This document shows positions 14,464 through 49,665 of a DNA stretch of 53,075 nt, in pieces. The notes beneath the pieces are model-generated. The model had not been told where the DNA came from. It saw nothing but the letters and a program-made list of their open reading frames with translations, and ran no database searches. Source of the stretch: an uncultured Eubacterium sp. (GTDB lineage: Bacteria > Bacillota > Clostridia > Oscillospirales > Acutalibacteraceae); assembly GCA_905234995.1 (NCBI GenBank), contig CAJOJV010000012.1, positions 1-53,075 of the forward strand, written 5' to 3'. Position numbers and translations under genes: made by a program. Positions within the stretch are counted from its first letter, which is position 1; each line of letters starts with the position of its first letter.

Positions 14464-15696
14464 TTACTCGTTATTGTTCCTTTGAGCGTCAAGCATTGCC
14501 TTAACCTTTATTGAAAGGCCGAAGAGGTTGATGAAGCCTGCGGAATCAGCCTGATTGTAAGCGCCGCCGTCCTCGCCGAAGGAAGCGATGTTCTCATCAT
14601 AAAGGCTGAACGGTGAGGTAACGCCCGCGTTAATGATATTGCCCTTGTAAAGCTTCAGCTTAACGTCACCCGTGCAGGTTTCCTGTGTTTTGTCAACGAA
14701 AGCGGAAAGCGCCTCGCGCAGGGGAGTGAACCATAAGCCGTTATATACAAGCTCGCCGAATTTCTGGGAAACGAGCTTCTTGTAGTGAGAAGTCTCGCGG
14801 TCAAGGGTGAGCATCTCAAGCAGCTCGTGAGCTTTGTAAAGAATTGCGCCGCCCGGGGTCTCGTAAACGCCGCGGCTCTTCATACCAACGAGGCGGTTTT
14901 CAACGATGTCAAGCAGACCGATGCCGTTTGCGCCGCCGAGCTCGTTGAGCTTTTCAACGATTGCAAGCGGCTTCATTTCAACTCCGTCAATCGCGGTGGG
15001 CACGCCCTTTTCAAAATGAATTGAAACGTAGGTCGGCTCGTCCGGCGCCTGCTCGGGAGCAACGCCCAGCTCAAGGAAGCCCTCCTTAAGATACTGCGGC
15101 TCGTTTGCAGGGTCCTCAAGGTCAAGCCCCTCGTGCGAAAGATGCCAAACGTTCTTATCCTTTGAATAGTTCGTTTCACGGTTAATCTTAAGCGGAATAT
15201 TGTGTGCCTCCGCATATTCGATTTCCTCTTCACGGGATTTGATATCCCAGATACGCCAGGGGGCGATGATTTCCATTTCGGGCGCAAATGCCTTTAAGGT
15301 CAGCTCAAAGCGAACCTGGTCGTTGCCCTTGCCGGTGCAGCCGTGGCAGATAGCGTCAGCGCCTTCCTTAAGTGCAATTTCAGCAAGACCCTTTGCAATG
15401 CAGGGGCGTGCGTGAGAGGTGCCGAGAAGGTACGTTTCGTAATCTGCGCCCGCCTTTAAGCAGGGGAAGATGTAATCCTCAACGTATTCATCCTTGAGGT
15501 CAAGCACATAGAGCTTTGAAGCGCCCGTTGCAATTGCCTTTTCCTCAAGTCCGTCAAGCTCGGTGCCCTGACCGACGTCGCCGGATACGGCAATAACCTC
15601 GCAGTTATTATAGTTTTCCTTTAACCACGGAATGATAATTGAAGTGTCCAGCCCGCCGCTGTATGCAAGCACAACCTTTTTGATTTCCTTAGCCAT
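14464..15696 (-). CDS. argG: Argininosuccinate synthase
   Basis: 410 residues, full length. It joins citrulline and aspartate using ATP to give argininosuccinate. The N-terminal ATP pyrophosphatase loop [15 protein letters not shown] and the second motif [17 protein letters not shown] are present, as are the citrulline/aspartate-site segments [14 protein letters not shown] and [24 protein letters not shown] stands 8 bases before the ATG. First gene of argGH, with a sigma-A promoter at 15762-15790 and ArgR-like boxes further upstream. Confidence 0.97.
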
Positions 15697-15761
15697 TTTG
15701 AATACCTCCGATATAATATGTATTAATATATGATTTTATGAAAAATTCTGAACTGCTAATC

Positions 15762-15790
15762 ATTATATATGCCCGTTTCGGCATAGTCAA
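15762..15790 (-). promoter_or_regulatory. Sigma-A promoter of argGH
   Basis: Minus strand: TTGACT (15790-15785), 17 bases, TATAAT (15767-15762). The leader is about 60 bases. Confidence 0.75.
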
Positions 15791-15806
15791 GCAAAATGTA
15801 TAAATT

Positions 15807-15861
15807 TGTATAAACATACAAAAACAGCGAATAATCAATGAATATTATGTATATTTTTGCA
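15807..15861. promoter_or_regulatory. Two ARG-box-like palindromes upstream of argG
   Basis: TGTATAAACATACA (15807-15820) and TGTATATTTTTGCA (15848-15861) resemble the ArgR half-box pair TGNATWWWWATNCA, with centres 41 bases apart, about four helical turns. They lie upstream of the -35 box. A weaker third match overlaps at 15797-15810. Binding by ArgR/AhrC is inferred only from the pattern and from the argGH neighbour. Confidence 0.4.
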
Positions 15862-15874
15862 ATGCAGAGACCCG

Positions 15875-16082
15875 ACAAATTGGGATTTATAGAGCTAAAT
15901 GTTTGCTAACGCAAACGCTAAATTGCTTTGCAGCTAAATAACAACGTTGCTAAATTCGGCTAACGCCGAGCTGATTAGCGTTGACCTTCGGTCAACCTTT
16001 CGCTTGCCGCAGGCAAATTTAGCTACCGCAGGTAATTTAGTATAATCAAAGATTATATTTAGCTATACAAACTCCGATTTAT
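15875..16082. repeat. Element E2: mirror-symmetric hairpin array with GCTAAAT spacers
   Basis: Left end ACAAATTGGGATTTAT (15875-15890), right end ACAAACTCCGATTTAT (16067-16082). Between them the 7-mer GCTAAAT occurs at 15894, 15917, 15933 and 15949. Its reverse complement ATTTAGC (one copy ATTTAGT) occurs at 16017, 16035 and 16057. Each interval holds a small hairpin of different sequence: GTTTGC/GCAAAC, TGC/GCA, CAAC/GTTG, TCGGC/GCCGA, GTTGACC/GGTCAAC, TTGCC/GGCAA, TACC/GGTA, ATAATC/GATTAT, mostly with 3- or 4-base loops. No ORF fits. Confidence 0.75.
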
Positions 16083-16090
16083 AAACCAAC

Positions 16091-16123
16091 AAAAAAGGTG
16101 TATGAGAAAACTCATACACCTTT
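16091..16123 (-). terminator. Terminator-like hairpin without an obvious gene
   Basis: AAAGGTGTATGAG (16094-16106), loop AAAA, CTCATACACCTTT (16111-16123). The better T tract (TTTTTTG) is on the minus strand, yet no minus-strand gene lies in 16124-16310. It may end a small RNA or be a leftover. Confidence 0.6.
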
Positions 16124-16138
16124 AATATTGCCTCTGTG

Positions 16139-16262
16139 TTTATGCTATATTTAATGAGTAATATTTTATCAATGGGGCAATTGCGCCCTGTTGATTTTAA
16201 TGCATAGCTGCTTTCGGCTGCGAAAATCGGCTCAACAGTTGGTCAGGCTGCTCGGTTTTTTA
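16139..16262 (+). promoter_or_regulatory. Possible promoter and structured leader of the large secreted protein gene
   Basis: A weak -35 TTTATG (16139-16144), 17 bases and TATTTT (16162-16167) may be the promoter. The transcript would begin with a foldable stretch: GGGC-aatt-GCGCCC near 16176-16189, and CTGTTGA pairing with TCAACAG across about 16189-16239, enclosing AGC-tgctttc-GGCT. A T run follows near 16256. I checked it by eye against the c-di-GMP-I riboswitch pattern and saw no match. Confidence 0.35.
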
Positions 16263-16309
16263 ATGACAAAAGCTTCTTAATGCAAATTCCAAAGGAGGAA
16301 TGAAACCAA

Positions 16310-19300
16310 ATGAAAGTAACAAAAAGCAAAAGATTATTGGCTGTTCTTCTTTCTGTTGTTATGGTTCTCACTGCAATTATGTGCGTTCCGTTCGTTTCAT
16401 ACGGCGCAACAACCGCTCAGCTTGAAACCCTTATAACCAATTATGAGAACAGGCTTAATCAAACAAAAAGGATTTACACAAATCTTGCCGCTTCTTATCA
16501 GGCATATTATAACGCTTACACCACGCTCGTTTCCTACGAAGCGGGTCAGCCCGGTTATTCGCCTGAAGCTATAGACACGGTTTATGATAATCTTCTTACT
16601 GAGTATAATAATATGACTGTATTCACAGGCTATAAGGGCACGGGCACCGCAGCCTTCGGCTCTGCTGCAACTCAGCCGAGCGGTTATACAAACCTGCTTT
16701 ATGCTGACGGCTCTTCCGATACCGGCTTCAGCTTCAGCTTCAAGAATATTGCAGGCACCTCTGTAGTTGCGGAATACGGCTATTATGCAGATTTCTATTA
16801 TCCTGCAACCGTTCTGCTTTATGACGGAACGACGGCTTCCATGCCCGTTCTTTCCGGTCTTATTAACAGCGACGGCAGATATAACGTTTATGCTTGGAGA
16901 AATTATACCGATTCCGATTACTTTGAACTTCGTAATAACTGGTACGGCTATGCAGACGGCTTCGTTTGGGCGGATTCAGACAGCCTTAATTCTGATCTGG
17001 GCGATCCTGTAACCCTTGGCTACAGCACCACGACAAGCGGCACAAACGTGCTTGTTGATAACAAGAACACAATGCGCTGCTTCTCAAATATTCTTTACTA
17101 TACCGGCACGCCGACCGACACCGTTACTACTTATGATTCACTGACCTGGTATAACCAGCAGGATCATGACAGCAAAATCGCGTCCGGCACTTATTCTCAG
17201 ACGATTAAGGTTATTAACTATAAGCAGCTTCTTGACGCGGTTTCGGGCAAGAAGATTGACGTTACAACGGCAACATACGAATCTGCGCTTGCATATTGCC
17301 AGGCTATGGATACCGCAACAAGCCTTGACCCGAACTCATATTTCATAGGCTATGACGGCACCGTTCCCTGTAAAAATGCAATTGAAAGCGCGGTAAGCGG
17401 CATTGCAACAGCGTATGCAGGCATAACCTCAACCTCTGATTTTGCTTCATACAGAACCTTTGCAAGACTGTATGCGAATTATTCAGCCGTTGATAACACC
17501 AGCGGTTATTACACTGCAGAGTCCTTTGCAAACTTCTCAACGGCAGTTTCCAATGCTGCAGGCATTTTACAGGAAATCGGCGCAAGAACAAGAAGAATGA
17601 CCTCTGCGGCTTCAGATCTTGCAACCCTTCAGGCTGCTTATGCCGCTCTTGAAAAGACCGCTGAGTATATTGACGATACGGATATGCAGATGTATATCAC
17701 GGAGTTCAATTCACTCAATGCAGGTAACTATACCACTGCAAGCTATAATGCGCTTCAGTCCGCAATCAATGCAGCAATTGCCGCTTGCTATAATGACGGC
17801 AACTTTGCTTCGGGCATCAAGCTCCTTGCAGACGTTCCTGCAGACGTAACCACTTATAACACGCATCTCGGCAATATCACAACCGCTTTCCAGAATCTGG
17901 TATCAACCGCAACAGAGGACGACCTCTATCAGGAAACGGGCATCGTAACAATCGGCGGTCCGATTTACGTTCACGGCTCTTATACGGGCACAACTCCTAA
18001 CCGTACTTCGGGCGACAGCAGCACCGTATCTCATACATACGACTTTGATTATATGATGAACGGCGGCACGACGAAGTATGTTTCCGACGGCACCTTGCCT
18101 ACCCATACAACCGATAGCTTAACGGGCGAGTTCAAAACAGAGGTAACCTTCCCCGTGGGCTACAGCCTTATCGGCATCACCGCTTATGACGAGGCGGGCA
18201 CGGAATTAACAAATTCCTCGCTCAGCGTTGTTGACGGCGTGCTTACCGGCTCGTTCGATTTCACGGGCAGCGACCTTGCTACCCTTACTCAGGCGGACGG
18301 CAACACCACCCAGAATAATTACGTAACCCTTAAGTTTGCGCTTGATGATGATAACGACGGCGTTGCAGACGTAACCGAAACGCACCGAGTTGCAGTTAAG
18401 CAGAACCCCGTTGCAACCCATGCAATCGTTTATTCAGAGGGTTATAATGGTACTATAAATCCGAAAATCCGTGTAATAAACTATGAAGCGCTTGCAGTTG
18501 GCTCCTACGGCCTTCTCGGTGACAGCAGAGATGCATCGTGGGATAGCGAAAGCGGCACAAATGCAAACAGCGGCTACGTTAACTGGTGGTTTATGTATGC
18601 GCCTAACAGCTCTGAAAAGGACGCTTACGATAATAAGGTTGACGGCTTGACCGAAAATCAGCTTTCGGTTGATAAGGTTGCAGGTTATTACGGCTCTGCA
18701 AACAAAAGCGTATCAAGCACGCATACCGTAACGGTTAATTCCGCAACTGCTTATTACTATCTTGATTTAAGTGCTCCCACGGATTCTCTTCCCGAGGGCA
18801 TCGGCTATAATAGCTCCACAAGTAAGTATTATTTCAGAATTTTCGTCGGCAACCTTTATAACAGCAAGGTTACTGATGCTTCTAACATTTCTTGCGAAAC
18901 TCACGAGCTTACTTCAGGCTCGAACGTTTTCAGCGCATCGATTGATAACACTTTAACTGCAAATAATGCCTTTGCAAACAATGCTGCAACCACCGGCTAT
19001 GCAACGATTAGCTTCACAGGCTCGGTAGGCACGCTTACAGGCTCATATAAGTTAAGCTATTATCAGACTGCTTCTAATAAGCCAACAGGCGGTCGCGGTA
19101 TCATCAATATGCCGTTCACGGTAGTTGTTGTTAACAAGTCTGCCGTTCGCACGGTTTATGATAATTATATTGCAATGGGTCTTGATTCCCGCTGCTACAC
19201 CGCTGCAAGCTGGGCAACCTATCAAACCGCGCTTAACGCTGCAGAAAACTATCTTAATAACTATCAGTCAAACGCTAATGAATCCACTCTCGTTACTGCA

Positions 19301-21235
19301 ATGAATAATGCATATAACGGTCTGGAGCTCAGCGAAACAAAGTCAGTTCATAATTTCACAAGCGTTGTAACTGCTCCCACCTGCACAACAACGGGTATCA
19401 CAACCTACACCTGCACGCGCTGCGGCTACAGCTACACTGCATTCCCGCTTTCAGCTCTCGGCCACGATTGGGTTTATGCCTCAAATAACGATGGCTCAAC
19501 CCACACCAAGTCCTGCTCAAGAGCAGCAACCTGCGGCACTGCGGCAGCAAGTGAAAATTGCGTTGATGATAATGCGGACGGCAATTGCGATCTTTGCGGT
19601 CAGTCCCTTAAGGACCCTGCAGATTTCGCAGACTTCAATGCAGTTAAGACTCAGATTGAAGCCGCTCTTGCAAGCGCTATGAACGGCACTGATAAGCACA
19701 GCGCAACCGGTCTTAACAATCTTAACACAGCTCTTGCGGCTGCATCCTATTATAACTATACGGATAATCAGCAGAGCAAGGTAACAGAGGATTATCAGAC
19801 CGCTGTTAATAATCAGACAACCGCTCTTCAGGCAGCGCTTAATGCATTCATTGCAGATACGGACGGCTCAAGCGTTTATGAAGCGTTTGCTAAGAACGTT
19901 GCAACCCTTAATGCGGACGCTATGGATATCGCAACGGTTCAGGCTGCACTTTCAGGTGTTGAAATTGAAGCGGGCACGGTAACTGTTAACGGCGTTGCAG
20001 GCTATCCTGCTTACAATTTTGATGCTTATATCGCTGAGTATCAGACTCAGATGAACACCGAGGAAAATTATATTCCTTATACCGTAACTGTTATTACGGC
20101 TTCAAATTCAACGCTTTATGTTGTTGATAACGGCGATGGCAGCTTCTCCTACACTGATGATGGCACAGAGGCAACCGACTTCCATTACGGCGATGAGATT
20201 ACTCTTGCAAATCCGAACGTTGATGCTTCAAGCGATTTCGCTTGCTCATGGGCAGTAAGCGCACAGCCGCAGAGTGCGGTCAGCGCTTCCGCTTCAAGGC
20301 ACGTTACTTATGCTAACACCTTCACCTTCAACGTAAGGGGCGCAATGACAATCACAACGGGTAACTCAAGAACGGACGGCAGCTATCAGATTGTCTTCAA
20401 GCAGTCGTTAAGAGGCGCTAAAACCGATAAGATTCTTGATGTTCAGTATGTAAATGCAGGCAGCCCCTTCGCCTTCACAAAGGCAGTTCTGCCTACAAGC
20501 GTTGCATTCCATACAAAGGATAACGCTCCGTTCTCGGTTTCTTACGATAACGGCACAACCACGACCAAGCTCAGCGGCACAAGCTTCACACCTACGGGTG
20601 ATTGCGTAGTTTACGTAAACTATTCAAGCACAAACTCAGATGTTTATGCTATAAACTACACAACCTCTGATGATGATTATGATTACATTGAAGCTGCGTT
20701 TAATGAATCCGTAACCTTAACGGATGATAATGCGGTTGCATTTGTAACCTACGTTGACGATGATCCTGAGGGTGAAATCAAGTCAGTGCTTTGCTATGGC
20801 ACGTCATACACCTTCTTCGCTTACCAGGATATGGATATCTATGCAGTAAGCAGCATTGATGAGGTTGTAAGCGTAAGCGTATGCTCAGCTCCTATTATTG
20901 ACAGGAAGAATAATAATAAAACATATCTTGTCGGCGGCTTTGCATTGCCTGATGATTGCACCGTTCAGAGCTACGGCTTCGTTATGAATGCTTATGAACC
21001 GGAGCCTGAGCATCTTTCACTTGCAGATCTTGTTAACGACGGCGAGGATTTAATCGTTAACCTCACAAGCTCCAACTGCACGAACGTTGGTCAGAGGGGC
21101 AATCAGTTCTCGGTTAAATTCAATTCGGTTGCTATGTATAATCCGAGCTACGTTGCTTACGTAATTTATACTGACGGCAACGGCGATACGCAGTATGCAT
21201 ATTCTGAAATTATTATGAACGCAGACTTTTCATAA
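16310..21235 (+). CDS. Large secreted FIVAR-like repeat protein
   Basis: 1641 residues. A signal peptide (MKVTKSKRLLAVLLSVVMVL, then a stretch ending SYGA at about 35) targets it outside. Helical FIVAR-like units appear near residue 400 (YYTAESFANFSTAVSNAAG), 473 (NYTTASYNALQSAINAAI) and 962 (CYTAASWATYQTALNAAE); beta-rich stretches lie between them. A Cys-rich block at about 1020-1105 (TCTRCGYSYT..., LGHDW, DDNADGNCDLCG) resembles the CxxC modules common in Clostridia surface proteins. No LPXTG, SLH, dockerin or membrane anchor is seen at the C-terminus (SEIIMNADFS), so attachment is unknown. AAAGGAGG precedes the ATG. Composition is Thr/Ala/Asn/Tyr-rich. Carbohydrate or mucin binding is a family-based guess. 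A 46-residue ORF follows after 13 bases. Confidence 0.8.
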   Translation: MKVTKSKRLLAVLLSVVMVLTAIMCVPFVSYGATTAQLETLITNYENRLNQTKRIYTNLAASYQAYYNAYTTLVSYEAGQPGYSPEAIDTVYDNLLTEYNNMTVFTGYKGTGTAAFGSAATQPSGYTNLLYADGSSDTGFSFSFKNIAGTSVVAEYGYYADFYYPATVLLYDGTTASMPVLSGLINSDGRYNVYAWRNYTDSDYFELRNNWYGYADGFVWADSDSLNSDLGDPVTLGYSTTTSGTNVLVDNKNTMRCFSNILYYTGTPTDTVTTYDSLTWYNQQDHDSKIASGTYSQTIKVINYKQLLDAVSGKKIDVTTATYESALAYCQAMDTATSLDPNSYFIGYDGTVPCKNAIESAVSGIATAYAGITSTSDFASYRTFARLYANYSAVDNTSGYYTAESFANFSTAVSNAAGILQEIGARTRRMTSAASDLATLQAAYAALEKTAEYIDDTDMQMYITEFNSLNAGNYTTASYNALQSAINAAIAACYNDGNFASGIKLLADVPADVTTYNTHLGNITTAFQNLVSTATEDDLYQETGIVTIGGPIYVHGSYTGTTPNRTSGDSSTVSHTYDFDYMMNGGTTKYVSDGTLPTHTTDSLTGEFKTEVTFPVGYSLIGITAYDEAGTELTNSSLSVVDGVLTGSFDFTGSDLATLTQADGNTTQNNYVTLKFALDDDNDGVADVTETHRVAVKQNPVATHAIVYSEGYNGTINPKIRVINYEALAVGSYGLLGDSRDASWDSESGTNANSGYVNWWFMYAPNSSEKDAYDNKVDGLTENQLSVDKVAGYYGSANKSVSSTHTVTVNSATAYYYLDLSAPTDSLPEGIGYNSSTSKYYFRIFVGNLYNSKVTDASNISCETHELTSGSNVFSASIDNTLTANNAFANNAATTGYATISFTGSVGTLTGSYKLSYYQTASNKPTGGRGIINMPFTVVVVNKSAVRTVYDNYIAMGLDSRCYTAASWATYQTALNAAENYLNNYQSNANESTLVTAMNNAYNGLELSETKSVHNFTSVVTAPTCTTTGITTYTCTRCGYSYTAFPLSALGHDWVYASNNDGSTHTKSCSRAATCGTAAASENCVDDNADGNCDLCGQSLKDPADFADFNAVKTQIEAALASAMNGTDKHSATGLNNLNTALAAASYYNYTDNQQSKVTEDYQTAVNNQTTALQAALNAFIADTDGSSVYEAFAKNVATLNADAMDIATVQAALSGVEIEAGTVTVNGVAGYPAYNFDAYIAEYQTQMNTEENYIPYTVTVITASNSTLYVVDNGDGSFSYTDDGTEATDFHYGDEITLANPNVDASSDFACSWAVSAQPQSAVSASASRHVTYANTFTFNVRGAMTITTGNSRTDGSYQIVFKQSLRGAKTDKILDVQYVNAGSPFAFTKAVLPTSVAFHTKDNAPFSVSYDNGTTTTKLSGTSFTPTGDCVVYVNYSSTNSDVYAINYTTSDDDYDYIEAAFNESVTLTDDNAVAFVTYVDDDPEGEIKSVLCYGTSYTFFAYQDMDIYAVSSIDEVVSVSVCSAPIIDRKNNNKTYLVGGFALPDDCTVQSYGFVMNAYEPEPEHLSLADLVNDGEDLIVNLTSSNCTNVGQRGNQFSVKFNSVAMYNPSYVAYVIYTDGNGDTQYAYSEIIMNADFS

Positions 21236-36726: not shown

Positions 36727-36889
36727 CCTTCCCCTTGAGGGGAAGGGGGACCGCTTGCGGTGGATGAGGTGGAATGATTTTATATACACCTCATCAGTCG
36801 CATAAATGCGACAGCTTTTACTAGCGTAGACGCTCCCCTCTGTCACTTTGTGACATCTCCCCATTAACGGGGAGTACCTCAAGGGAAAC
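36727..36889. repeat. Hairpin-rich intergenic repeat downstream of pckG
   Basis: A chain of small hairpins with no ORF: CCTTCCCC/GGGGAAGG (36728-36745), CCGC/GCGG (36751-36760), GATGAGGTG with CACCTCATC (36763-36795), GTCGCAT/ATGCGAC (36797-36812), AGCG/CGCT (36823-36834), TGTCA/TGACA (36841-36855) and CTCCCC/GGGGAG (36857-36874). The ends CCTTGAGG and CCTCAAGG are inverted, so the whole can close on itself. I remember similar CCTTCCCCT...GATGAGGTG repeats from other gut Clostridia. Confidence 0.65.
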
Positions 36890-48673: not shown

Positions 48674-49417
48674 ATGATTGAAAATATTTTTGCCGGCAGC
48701 GGAGTTGTGGCGATATGGGGCGTGCCTGCTTTGCGCCAGATTGCAGGCGTGTTTCTTGCGGTTTTTCTTTATAAAAACTGCAAGGCAAGGAATTATGATA
48801 AAAAATGGCTGTGGGCTTTGTTCGCCTTGATTTCTCCCGTTCTGTCGGTCGCGGGCTTTATCATTAAAACCAAGATTTCGGAGGATTTCGGCGTTGATAA
48901 GGATGAACAGCGCTCTGCAAAAAAGTATGCAATCATTTCGGTTATAATATATGTTCTTGCTTTAATTATTATGGTTGCTTCCGTGATTACTTTTGCCGTT
49001 TCAGGCGTAATAGGCGTTGCAAATGACAGCATAGAGTTGCTGCCGCATTATTATGATTCAAACGGCGTTGAGCACGAGGATTACAGAACTATTCCGATAT
49101 ATGATAAGGATGGCAATGAATACCACCTTGATGAAGTGTCAGACGGCTGGAATTGCGATTCATATTATGATGAAGCAGGAAACGAGTATTCGCTGGATTA
49201 TTGCTACATAACGCAGGACGGTTATTTTTATTATGACGAAAATAACGAGCTGGTAGATACCAAAGAAGCATTGTGGTATTACGATAAGCACTGGACGGAT
49301 GAAAACGGGAATCTCTATGCGCATATTGATAAAGGCGTTTATTGGGATGAGGACGGAAATCTCTGCATTGTATATTACACAGGCTGGACCCGCCTCGCTT
49401 TTGAACAAAATGATTAA
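48674..49417 (+). CDS. Membrane protein with tandem D-x-x-GN-x-Y repeats
   Basis: 247 residues; not recognised as a named family. Hydrophobic helices at about 15-35, 45-63 and 85-115 precede a polar C-terminal domain (about 120-247). That domain repeats a short unit: YDKDGNEYHLD, YDEAGNEYSLD, YDENNELVDTK, TDENGNLYAHID and WDEDGNLCIVY. Such Tyr/Asp/Gly units resemble YD- or toxin-shaft-type and cell-wall-binding repeats, here in only five copies. The domain would lie outside the cell if the last helix crosses outwards. AAGGTG precedes the ATG. Single gene ending in a terminator. Confidence 0.75.
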   Translation: MIENIFAGSGVVAIWGVPALRQIAGVFLAVFLYKNCKARNYDKKWLWALFALISPVLSVAGFIIKTKISEDFGVDKDEQRSAKKYAIISVIIYVLALIIMVASVITFAVSGVIGVANDSIELLPHYYDSNGVEHEDYRTIPIYDKDGNEYHLDEVSDGWNCDSYYDEAGNEYSLDYCYITQDGYFYYDENNELVDTKEALWYYDKHWTDENGNLYAHIDKGVYWDEDGNLCIVYYTGWTRLAFEQND

Positions 49418-49445
49418 AGGCTACCGATCGCGGTAGCCTTTTTCT
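49416..49445 (+). terminator. Terminator after the repeat membrane protein
   Basis: AAAGGCTACCG, short loop, CGGTAGCCTTTTT (49416-49443). Confidence 0.88.
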
Positions 49446-49446
49446 T

Positions 49447-49665
49447 TTGCGCGAAATGAAATTCGCTTCGCGAATGAAATCTGCTTGCTGTGCAAGCAGG
49501 TGTCGGGCGGATATCCGCACCCATTTATAAATTGCTGTCTGCAAGACCCTTAATAATATTGCATTGCAATATTATTTCATCCGCTTGCGGATATCATCTT
49601 CAAAGAAGATTTCATCCATTCGCAGAATGGATATCATTGGCTAAAGCCTGCTTTAGCCTAAGCCG
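49447..49665. repeat. Mirror-symmetric hairpin array with ATGAAAT/ATTTCAT spacers
   Basis: Small hairpins of unrelated sequence follow one another: ATTCGC/GCGAAT (49461), CTGCTTGC/GCAAGCAG (49481), GCGGAT/ATCCGC (49507), TTGC/GCAA (49532), AATAATATTGC/GCAATATTATT (49552), ATCCGC/GCGGAT (49579), ATCTTC/GAAGAT (49596), ATCCATTC/GAATGGAT (49614) and GGCTAAAGC/GCTTTAGCC (49639). Loops are mostly 2-3 bases. The spacer ATGAAAT stands at 49456 and 49474; inverted ATTTCAT at 49574 and 49609, and the variant ATATCAT at 49591 and 49631. The last hairpin includes the stop codon of the minus-strand lipoprotein gene. Confidence 0.75.

Follow-up and report, generated by a model that had tools for sequence, protein, structure and literature searches.

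The A, B, and C modules of the pneumococcal BOX elements are conserved sequences. BOX elements are small dispersed repeats with extensive secondary structure and are seen as parasitic (PMC3049150). REPs and REPINs are short palindromes that carry an unpaired terminal tag, lie between genes, form clusters and inverted pairs, and occur as several types per genome, and REPs of the CGTC kind are also found without a dedicated transposase (sections of the survey PMC3733652). The main text of that survey contains no words beginning with Firmicutes, Clostridi, or Ruminococc. Intergenic hairpins have also been argued to be mobile in the case of the Allomyces double-hairpin elements and the palindromic repeats of fungal and algal mitochondria (passages of PMC7218506), which are organellar, unlike the element reported here. 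The RNA family Gut-1 (RF01706), listed by Rfam as an sRNA, was described from environmental (human gut) sequences only and judged most likely to be a noncoding RNA in the portion of PMC2864571 that deals with it. Apart from the Gut-1 paper, the titles and abstract openings of the openly licensed papers that our searches listed gave neither a description nor a name for the class of elements treated below.

The element studied here lies at 15.9 kb of a 53,075-nucleotide window (the whole stretch of DNA that was analyzed, positions 1 to 53075 of contig C12 in a 2.04-Mb draft assembly of 74 contigs). As in REPs and REPINs, its palindromes are short, dispersed, intergenic, and often in inverted pairs. 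Unlike REPs, it carries a 7-base tag (GCTAAAT or a variant resembling RYKWWWT, instead of GTAG or CGTC) and a TNC/GNA loop code, and it forms multi-unit arrays whose halves can pair through the tags; the REPIN arrangement of a cognate Y1 transposase flanked by the repeat was not found, the Y1 loci of the source genome having no array nearby. Its stems vary, unlike BOX modules, and only the tag, the pairing, and the loop type are kept between genomes. The consensus of the Gut-1 model resembles the element in its three hairpins, UGAAAU linkers, and C(UUC)G or C(UUGC)G loops of the same orientation; it differs in having been published as an RNA (PMC2864571, in part), whereas here it is grouped with a dispersed DNA element. 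The element fails as a GTAG/CGTC REP, as a RAYT-driven REPIN, and, by score, as a Gut-1 member; its class, which seems to include Gut-1 as a fragment, is widespread and akin in kind to REP and BOX repeats, with elements common in related bacteria. For the mitochondrial hairpin elements, no 7-base tag of the kind shared across a bacterial order is known to us.

The best reading is that the element is probably mobile and is a new tagged relative in kind of the REP-, BOX-, and MITE-like repeats. We put a probability of about 70% on its being a non-autonomous, dispersed intergenic copy, composed of a palindrome array with 7-base tags and an inverted second half, that is moved in trans.

Layout of the array at 15.9 kb

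The array is located between a minus-strand gene (positions 14464 to 15696), which we take to be argG, and a plus-strand ORF (16310 to 21235). The latter spans 1,641 residues with a signal-like N-terminus and probably encodes a surface or secreted protein. The array is made up of four GCTAAAT linkers, eight hairpins (stem length, 3 to 7 pairs), and three inverted linkers, of which one is mismatched (Table 1). The initial annotation had reported the four direct linkers (15894, 15917, 15933, and 15949) and the eight hairpins between linkers, and both are present, the former as exact words; of its three inverted copies, those at 16017 and 16057 are exact ATTTAGC words, while the one at 16035 reads ATTTAGT. 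It had also called the hairpin stems unrelated to each other, which they are, yet the source genome has four other copies in which their order is the same.

Table 1 Features of the 15.9-kb array and of its sister element (window positions)
Feature	Position	Strand	Remark
Left outer arm AAATTGGGATTTATAGA	15877-15893	.	Imperfect complement of the right outer arm; pairs with it in the fold
Direct linker 1, GCTAAAT	15894-15900	+	Exact word
Hairpin 1, GTTTGC-TAAC-GCAAAC	15901-15916	.	Paired in 5/5 copies; one pair changed on both sides
Direct linker 2, GCTAAAT	15917-15923	+	Exact word
Hairpin 2, TGC-TTT-GCA	15924-15932	.	93.3% of cells paired
Direct linker 3, GCTAAAT	15933-15939	+	Exact word
Hairpin 3, AAC-AAC-GTT	15940-15948	.	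Both-sided change in 3/3 pairs among copies
Direct linker 4, GCTAAAT	15949-15955	+	Exact word
Hairpin 4, TCGGC-TAAC-GCCGA	15956-15969	.	5/5 copies, stem invariant
Apex GCTGATTAGC, turnover point of the array	15970-15979	.	
Hairpin 5, GTTGACC-TTC-GGTCAAC	15980-15996	.	5/5 copies, stem invariant
Diverged inverted linker, CTTTCGC	15997-16003	-	
Hairpin 6, TTGCC-GCA-GGCAA	16004-16016	.	Paired in 5/5 copies
Inverted linker, ATTTAGC	16017-16023	-	Exact word
Hairpin 7, TACC-GCA-GGTA	16024-16034	.	95% of cells paired
Inverted linker, ATTTAGT	16035-16041	-	One mismatch
Hairpin 8, ATAATC-AAA-GATTAT	16042-16056	.	93.3% of cells paired; both-sided change in 4/6 pairs
Inverted linker, ATTTAGC	16057-16063	-	Exact word
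Right outer arm TATACAAACTCCGATTTATAAACC	16064-16087	.	Common to C12:59583; pairs with the left arm in the fold
Flank with terminator-like hairpin AAAAAAGGTGTATGAGAAAACTCATACACCTTT	16088-16140	.	Also to the right of copy C12:59583
Sister element, ATGAAAT/ATTTCAT linkers	49450-49660	.	Contains the Rfam Gut-1 match

RNA folding of positions 15870 to 16130 gave -88 kcal/mol, compared with -48.5 ± 5.0 for 200 shuffles (z = -7.9), and the predicted fold is a single branched tree, with direct linkers paired to inverted ones. An arrangement in which a 7-mer occurs four or more times and its reverse complement then occurs two or more times is present once in the window and in none of 60 Markov-shuffled copies. 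A strict detection of hairpin clusters (stems of at least 5 pairs, at least 4 hairpins in a row) missed the 15.9-kb array because some of its stems are shorter; it recovered the array at 49.5 kb together with positions 36797 to 36874, and a cluster was also found in 1 of 20 shuffles. The segment at 36797 to 36874, whose size was matched in that one shuffle, is made of four perfect hairpins that are short and have no linker in common.

Copies in the source genome and corresponding sites in related species

In the source genome, two GCTAAAT words 8 to 30 bases apart were found 16 times per strand, whereas the same pattern written backwards as a control gave 2 and 3 matches. Blast identified five copies of one subfamily (C12:15884, C12:59583, C20:22046, C29:26427, and the diverged C19:792) with identities of 100, 98, 91, 92, and 73%, respectively, the last covering positions 11 to 157 of 190. 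The order of the hairpins is the same in all five, although the stems within an array are unrelated to one another; only at position three of the C19 copy does a different hairpin stand. The window copy and C12:59583 also have in common the right flank with its terminator-like hairpin. The outer arms, which pair imperfectly with each other, are common to these two copies, and the left one is largely present at C20:22046 as well; the arms of the other copies differ. A second subfamily in the source genome has other hairpins and a variable number of hairpin units, and shorter relatives occur there too. Among 60 genomes of the genus (one per species, the source genome included, out of 80), matches to the element were found in four, and full-length copies in the source genome only.

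The site upstream of argG was compared with that of two sister species, G044 (ArgG 98% identical to the window's) and G058 (97%). Both flanks match in these genomes, the element is absent, and about 100 other bases stand in its place, so this comparison represents a replacement of about 100 bases and no clean insertion. Upstream regions of argG from 29 relatives (73 to 900 bases) contain no GCTAAAT/ATTTAGC in 26 cases and a single copy in 3. We also searched the flanks of ten further source-genome elements in six near relatives, which made six sites comparable in a comparison that leaves out C12:59583, C17, C20a, and C20b. The flank-to-flank distances of the source genome are 205 bases at the first site (relatives, 108 and 165; the 1,840 bases of G044 are uninformative), 168 at the second (64, 71, 75, 66, and 284, the last including masked bases), 194 at the third (107, 101, 39, 85, and 56), 186 at the fourth (164 and 62), 215 at the fifth, C19 (84, 40, and 58, where 40 and 58 have a poor left-flank match and the comparison is that with G044, in which both flanks aligned well), and 210 at the sixth (66 and 37). 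No GCTAAAT or ATTTAGC was found in the 15 regions of relatives fetched for these six sites.

All seven compared sites, including that of the window, differ between the source genome and sister species by a whole element between matching flanks. Gain in the source lineage would be a simpler reading than loss in the relatives, because at least two relatives are without the element at six of the seven sites. Loss could still account for individual sites, since the gaps of several relatives hold other short repeats and good flanks at C19 were obtained only in G044. Visual inspection of the compared sites showed no target-site duplications, and replacements or diverged gaps predominate among them. 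Given the dispersed copies and the sister species without the element beside argG, the 15.9-kb array was probably not built in place and is one copy of a dispersed element.

The gaps of the relatives have contents of their own. At the sites of source elements C5a and C8a, three regions (L552, L556, and L557) contain other short repeats of the ACCGGCCAC and GCTGACCG types, as if the same intergenic spots took up different repeat families. At the site of C8c, G044 (L551, G044:C122) carries a short intergenic repeat made of GAATTCGGAAT-like words.

Linker words, loop polarity, and the Gut-1 family

A word-free detector, which accepts any 6-mer repeated around hairpins and requires an inverted second half, identified 6 elements in 451,569 bases of the source genome, 8 in stretches of the genus chosen mostly by Gut-1 matches (315,025 bases), and 25 in records chosen by GCTAAAT (582,896 bases), with 0 in one shuffle of each. 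A looser version found 14, 16, 28, 3, and 56 elements in five partly overlapping sets (e.g., L083 lies within L300), against 2, 3, 3, 1, and 7 in three shuffles each. Self-complementary 6-mers (e.g., TGTACA, GTTAAC, and CAATTG) and ordinary tandem repeats (L049 and L124) were excluded as linkers. Read in the orientation in which the loop is TNC, the linker words are GCTAAAT, ATGAAAT, GTGAAAT, GTGATAT, ATGATAT, GCGATAT, TCGATAT, ACGATAT, GTTATAT, GTTTTAT, ATGAATT, GTGATTT, GTGAAGT, and possibly ATGATGT; the orientation of GTGATTT is not fixed by its loops. They would amount to about one degenerate 7-mer, RYKWWWT, a reading of about a dozen words that leaves three freedoms (loop orientation, register, and the choice of real rows) and has exceptions at position 1 (TCGATAT) and position 6 (GTGAAGT and ATGATGT). 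Words are mixed in some places. The looser detector, applied to 20 stretches from genomes without a GCTAAAT triple, found two elements in L331, one of which combines GTTATAT with GTGATAT, and a single intergenic region (L107:2717-3112) holds a CGATAT element beside a GCTAAAT element, and the flank that follows them, TGCACCGCATATAAAGACTG, is nearly identical in the two cases.

The hairpins next to these words have one polarity. Among 419 units with nine words, the loops on the linker strand were C(TNC)G in 149 and C(TNNC)G in 65, whereas C(GNA)G occurred twice and C(GNNA)G 0 times (214 to 2). Such loops, in either orientation, make up 243 of the 505 hairpins near linkers (48%) and 222 of 5,377 background hairpins (4.1%; perfect hairpins with stems of 5 to 9 and loops of 3 to 4 in the fetched stretches), and the words therefore share a unit of one polarity. 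The 419 units are those that passed a stem score; another count gave 559 tag-to-tag intervals with 320 complete Watson-Crick hairpins. The loci were partly drawn from records selected for GCTAAAT or Gut-1, which biases the word frequencies. A single class covers the many linker words, its units have the same polarity, and some of its arrays mix words. A simple definition (a tag of approximately RYKWWWT, a TNC/GNA loop, and a perfect stem) can thus find and group elements with unrelated stems.

Of 394 genomes of the order, 18 (12 of 168 genera) have three GCTAAAT words in a row, and the backwards control occurs in one genome. Three TGAAAT words were found in 123 of 388 genomes (68 of 167 genera); backwards matches in 17 genomes indicate that some of these are due to chance. 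Many GCTAAAT triples are also chance matches, because only 77 of 194 overlapping matches (from 80 of at least 120 stretches) had two hairpin intervals, while 41 had one and 76 none. The hairpin-bearing GCTAAAT records include Ruminococcaceae, Oscillospiraceae, Ruminococcus, and Clostridia MAGs, several of rumen or gut origin according to their titles. Bacillus sp. SJS (L118) has four triple-GCTAAAT matches without a flag from the hairpin detector, probably a different kind of repeat.

The initial annotation was right in its observation and in proposing a class defined by plan, which the word-free detector recovered with several linker words; its array-specific spacer word and its claim of novelty were only partly right. 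GCTAAAT recurs across the source genome and in the 18 genomes of the order, and the other words appear to be variants of the same degenerate 7-mer that individual arrays may mix. As to novelty, the sister array at 49.5 kb belongs to the described family Gut-1, while the GCTAAAT element itself has no match to it.

A viral origin of the element was considered and rejected, as 79 viral stretches with three GCTAAAT words (103 matches) included none with two hairpin intervals. For GTGAAAT, the 80 viral stretches listed of 104 include four contigs with real arrays (L465, L490, L496, and L454; IMG/VR), which may be prophages of carrier bacteria or flanking host DNA. A plasmid search with the element returned no match; the plasmid matches to the query L465 concern other sequence of that query.

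The Rfam covariance model of Gut-1 matches the sister array at 49569 to 49639 on the minus strand with 56.2 bits (cut-off, 50) and, weakly, at 49412 to 49485 on the plus strand with 24.6 bits. The 15.9-kb array (15700 to 16320) gave no Gut-1 match even at an E value of ≤1 and hence lies outside the family by its gathering score of 50. Within the genus, 27 of the 60 genomes have Gut-1 matches at an E value of ≤0.001 and 21 have matches above the cut-off, with up to 31 per genome and 23 in the source genome; one of 14 control genomes (E. coli) had a match, below the cut-off. Among the 150 matches listed, 27 neighboring pairs lie within 200 bases of each other. In 25 of these pairs the two matches are on opposite strands, with the plus-strand match always first, and in the other 2 they share a strand. 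Therefore, Gut-1 as modeled seems often to be half of a larger inverted dispersed element. The most direct link joining the Gut-1 and GCTAAAT families is an array in G044, the nearest relative by argG, in which the successive linkers between hairpins are GTGAAAT, GTTAAAT, GCTAAAT, and GTGAAAT (L239:1320-1440, on G044:C162); two matches overlap this array, one to the window element and one, of 48.6 bits and below the cut-off, to Gut-1. An orphan RNA family is in this way linked to widespread dispersed DNA elements of gut and rumen bacteria.

Stem pairing, rival readings, and candidate mobilization

In the five aligned source-genome copies, which are paralogues (two of them 98% identical) with few covariation events, 97.9% of the cells in hairpins are paired, and both sides have changed in 10 of 39 pairs; 0 of 500 shuffles reached either value, and slid controls were 25 to 41% paired. 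The hairpins are hence kept as pairs in the five copies of this one genome, a point on which the initial annotation had made its reading depend. Relative to the window copy, 14 changes are two-sided Watson-Crick, 2 are one-sided to G-U, and 4 are one-sided to other mismatches. The stems of the 419 units, whose selection for a good stem lowers all mismatches alike, comprise 2005 Watson-Crick, 0 G-U, 4 A-C, and 10 other oppositions. When one mismatch type at a time was allowed as a pair, the counts were 33/1,752 for G-U, 23/1,745 for A-C, 15/1,691 for A-G, and 68/1,879 for C-T. Units between codirectional genes are divided 121 versus 95 by strand, with no strong preference. That the stems change in pairs with hardly any G-U, and without a strong strand preference, favors their maintenance as DNA palindromes rather than as an RNA fold; the slight excess of G-U over A-C (33 versus 23) and the two G-U among six one-sided changes would allow for weak selection at the RNA level. 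Because stem changes at many sites are nearly all from one Watson-Crick pair to another, they offer a natural data set on selection versus template-switch correction during replication. On the opposite strand of the unit, the loops are GNA closed by C-G. A GNA loop closed by C-G is that of unusually stable DNA mini-hairpins of the GCGAAGC type.

A crude ORF-based gene call placed 60 of 79 elements between two genes, left 18 undetermined, and put one, the 49.5-kb array, inside a called ORF. The genes flanking the 60 are codirectional in 35 cases, convergent in 15, and divergent in 10, compared with a baseline of 158, 56, and 61. The elements are located mainly between genes, in all gene orientations. 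These positions bear on a reading that we consider unlikely, in which the array is a structured noncoding RNA gene or UTR element whose transcript folds into the hairpin tree and acts as RNA. The 35 elements between codirectional genes would fit it, as would the strong predicted fold, the compensatory changes in the stems, and the status of Gut-1 as an sRNA in Rfam and as a most likely noncoding RNA in the part of PMC2864571 cited above. However, the near absence of G-U contrasts with 3/24, 8/34, and 16/108 G-U pairs in the minimum-energy folds of the window's tRNA, SRP RNA, and tmRNA, the units have no strong strand preference relative to genes, elements also occupy convergent and divergent gaps, and the element is absent from the compared sites in sister species.

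For a mobile DNA element moved in trans, we hypothesize that the element would be copied as a unit to new intergenic sites via single-stranded DNA; copying as a unit is suggested by the window copy and C12:59583, which share both the element and the flanking terminator-like hairpin. A trans-acting enzyme would read the tag beside the mini-hairpin in the single-stranded DNA, and the stems, needing only to pair, could drift in pairs, with perfect stems kept by selection for the DNA hairpin and/or by template-switch correction. Arrays may gain and lose units between like tags (the number of units varies among copies and arrays), and read-through transcripts would carry a branched hairpin tree, possibly with a side effect on neighboring mRNAs or their stability. 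Which enzyme moves such arrays is now a concrete and testable question. A wider form of this reading, possible but doubtful in our view, would see a previously unrecognized order-wide class of mobile DNA elements, with Gut-1 as a fragment of it, whose identity is a code: a degenerate tag of 7 bases next to a perfect mini-hairpin, the loop of which is GNA on one strand, with this unit repeated in arrays and in inverted halves; a hypothetical enzyme would read tag and loop via single-stranded DNA, and the stems would drift freely as pairs.

It is quite unlikely that mutation alone, by local slippage and template switching, made and perfected the tandem hairpins in place with no mobile element involved. 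Template switching can create and maintain hairpins (passages of PMC8794818), and duplicated and hybrid hairpins are present at L113:3628-3875 and L088:2551-2768, where as many as 12 tag-hairpin units are lined up head to tail in a one-sided array; these two loci are well suited to following how units are gained and lost. Against this, the same multi-hairpin element stands at separate sites with different flanks, and the linker words and the polarity of the loops are found again in different genera and families of the order, a recurrence that local slippage would not produce. Template switching can also invert loops, and the strict loop polarity argues against frequent inversion of whole hairpins in this way.

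Movement as a REP/REPIN by a RAYT-type Y1 transposase is very unlikely, even though tagged short intergenic palindromes in head-to-tail clusters and inverted pairs are also seen in REPs (PMC3733652, in part) and the source genome has four Y1_Tnp matches above the cut-off. The tag is neither GTAG nor CGTC. No Y1_Tnp match was found in 7 of 15 distinct carrier genomes (16 handles, of which G113 and G477 are evidently one genome), and four of these seven are 96 to 99% complete. The three RAYT-like loci of the source genome are accompanied by unrelated hairpins of their own, and up to 1.5 kb around them contained no GCTAAAT. RAYT/Y1 was accordingly rejected as the general mobilizer.

A CRISPR-like array that collects hairpin spacers can hardly be entertained, since despite the constant short repeat, the variable inserts, and arrays of up to 12 units, each insert is self-complementary, the order of the inserts is repeated at separate sites where a CRISPR array would have unique spacers, and an inverted second half fits no CRISPR array.

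The RAYT-like Y1 matches of the source genome have distinct surroundings: that on C45 (L209) lies between two copies of one hairpin, ACAAATGGGGTCGTACCCCATTTGT, and those on C51 (L210) and C57 (L211) have a GGGGAC..GTCCCC hairpin just upstream.
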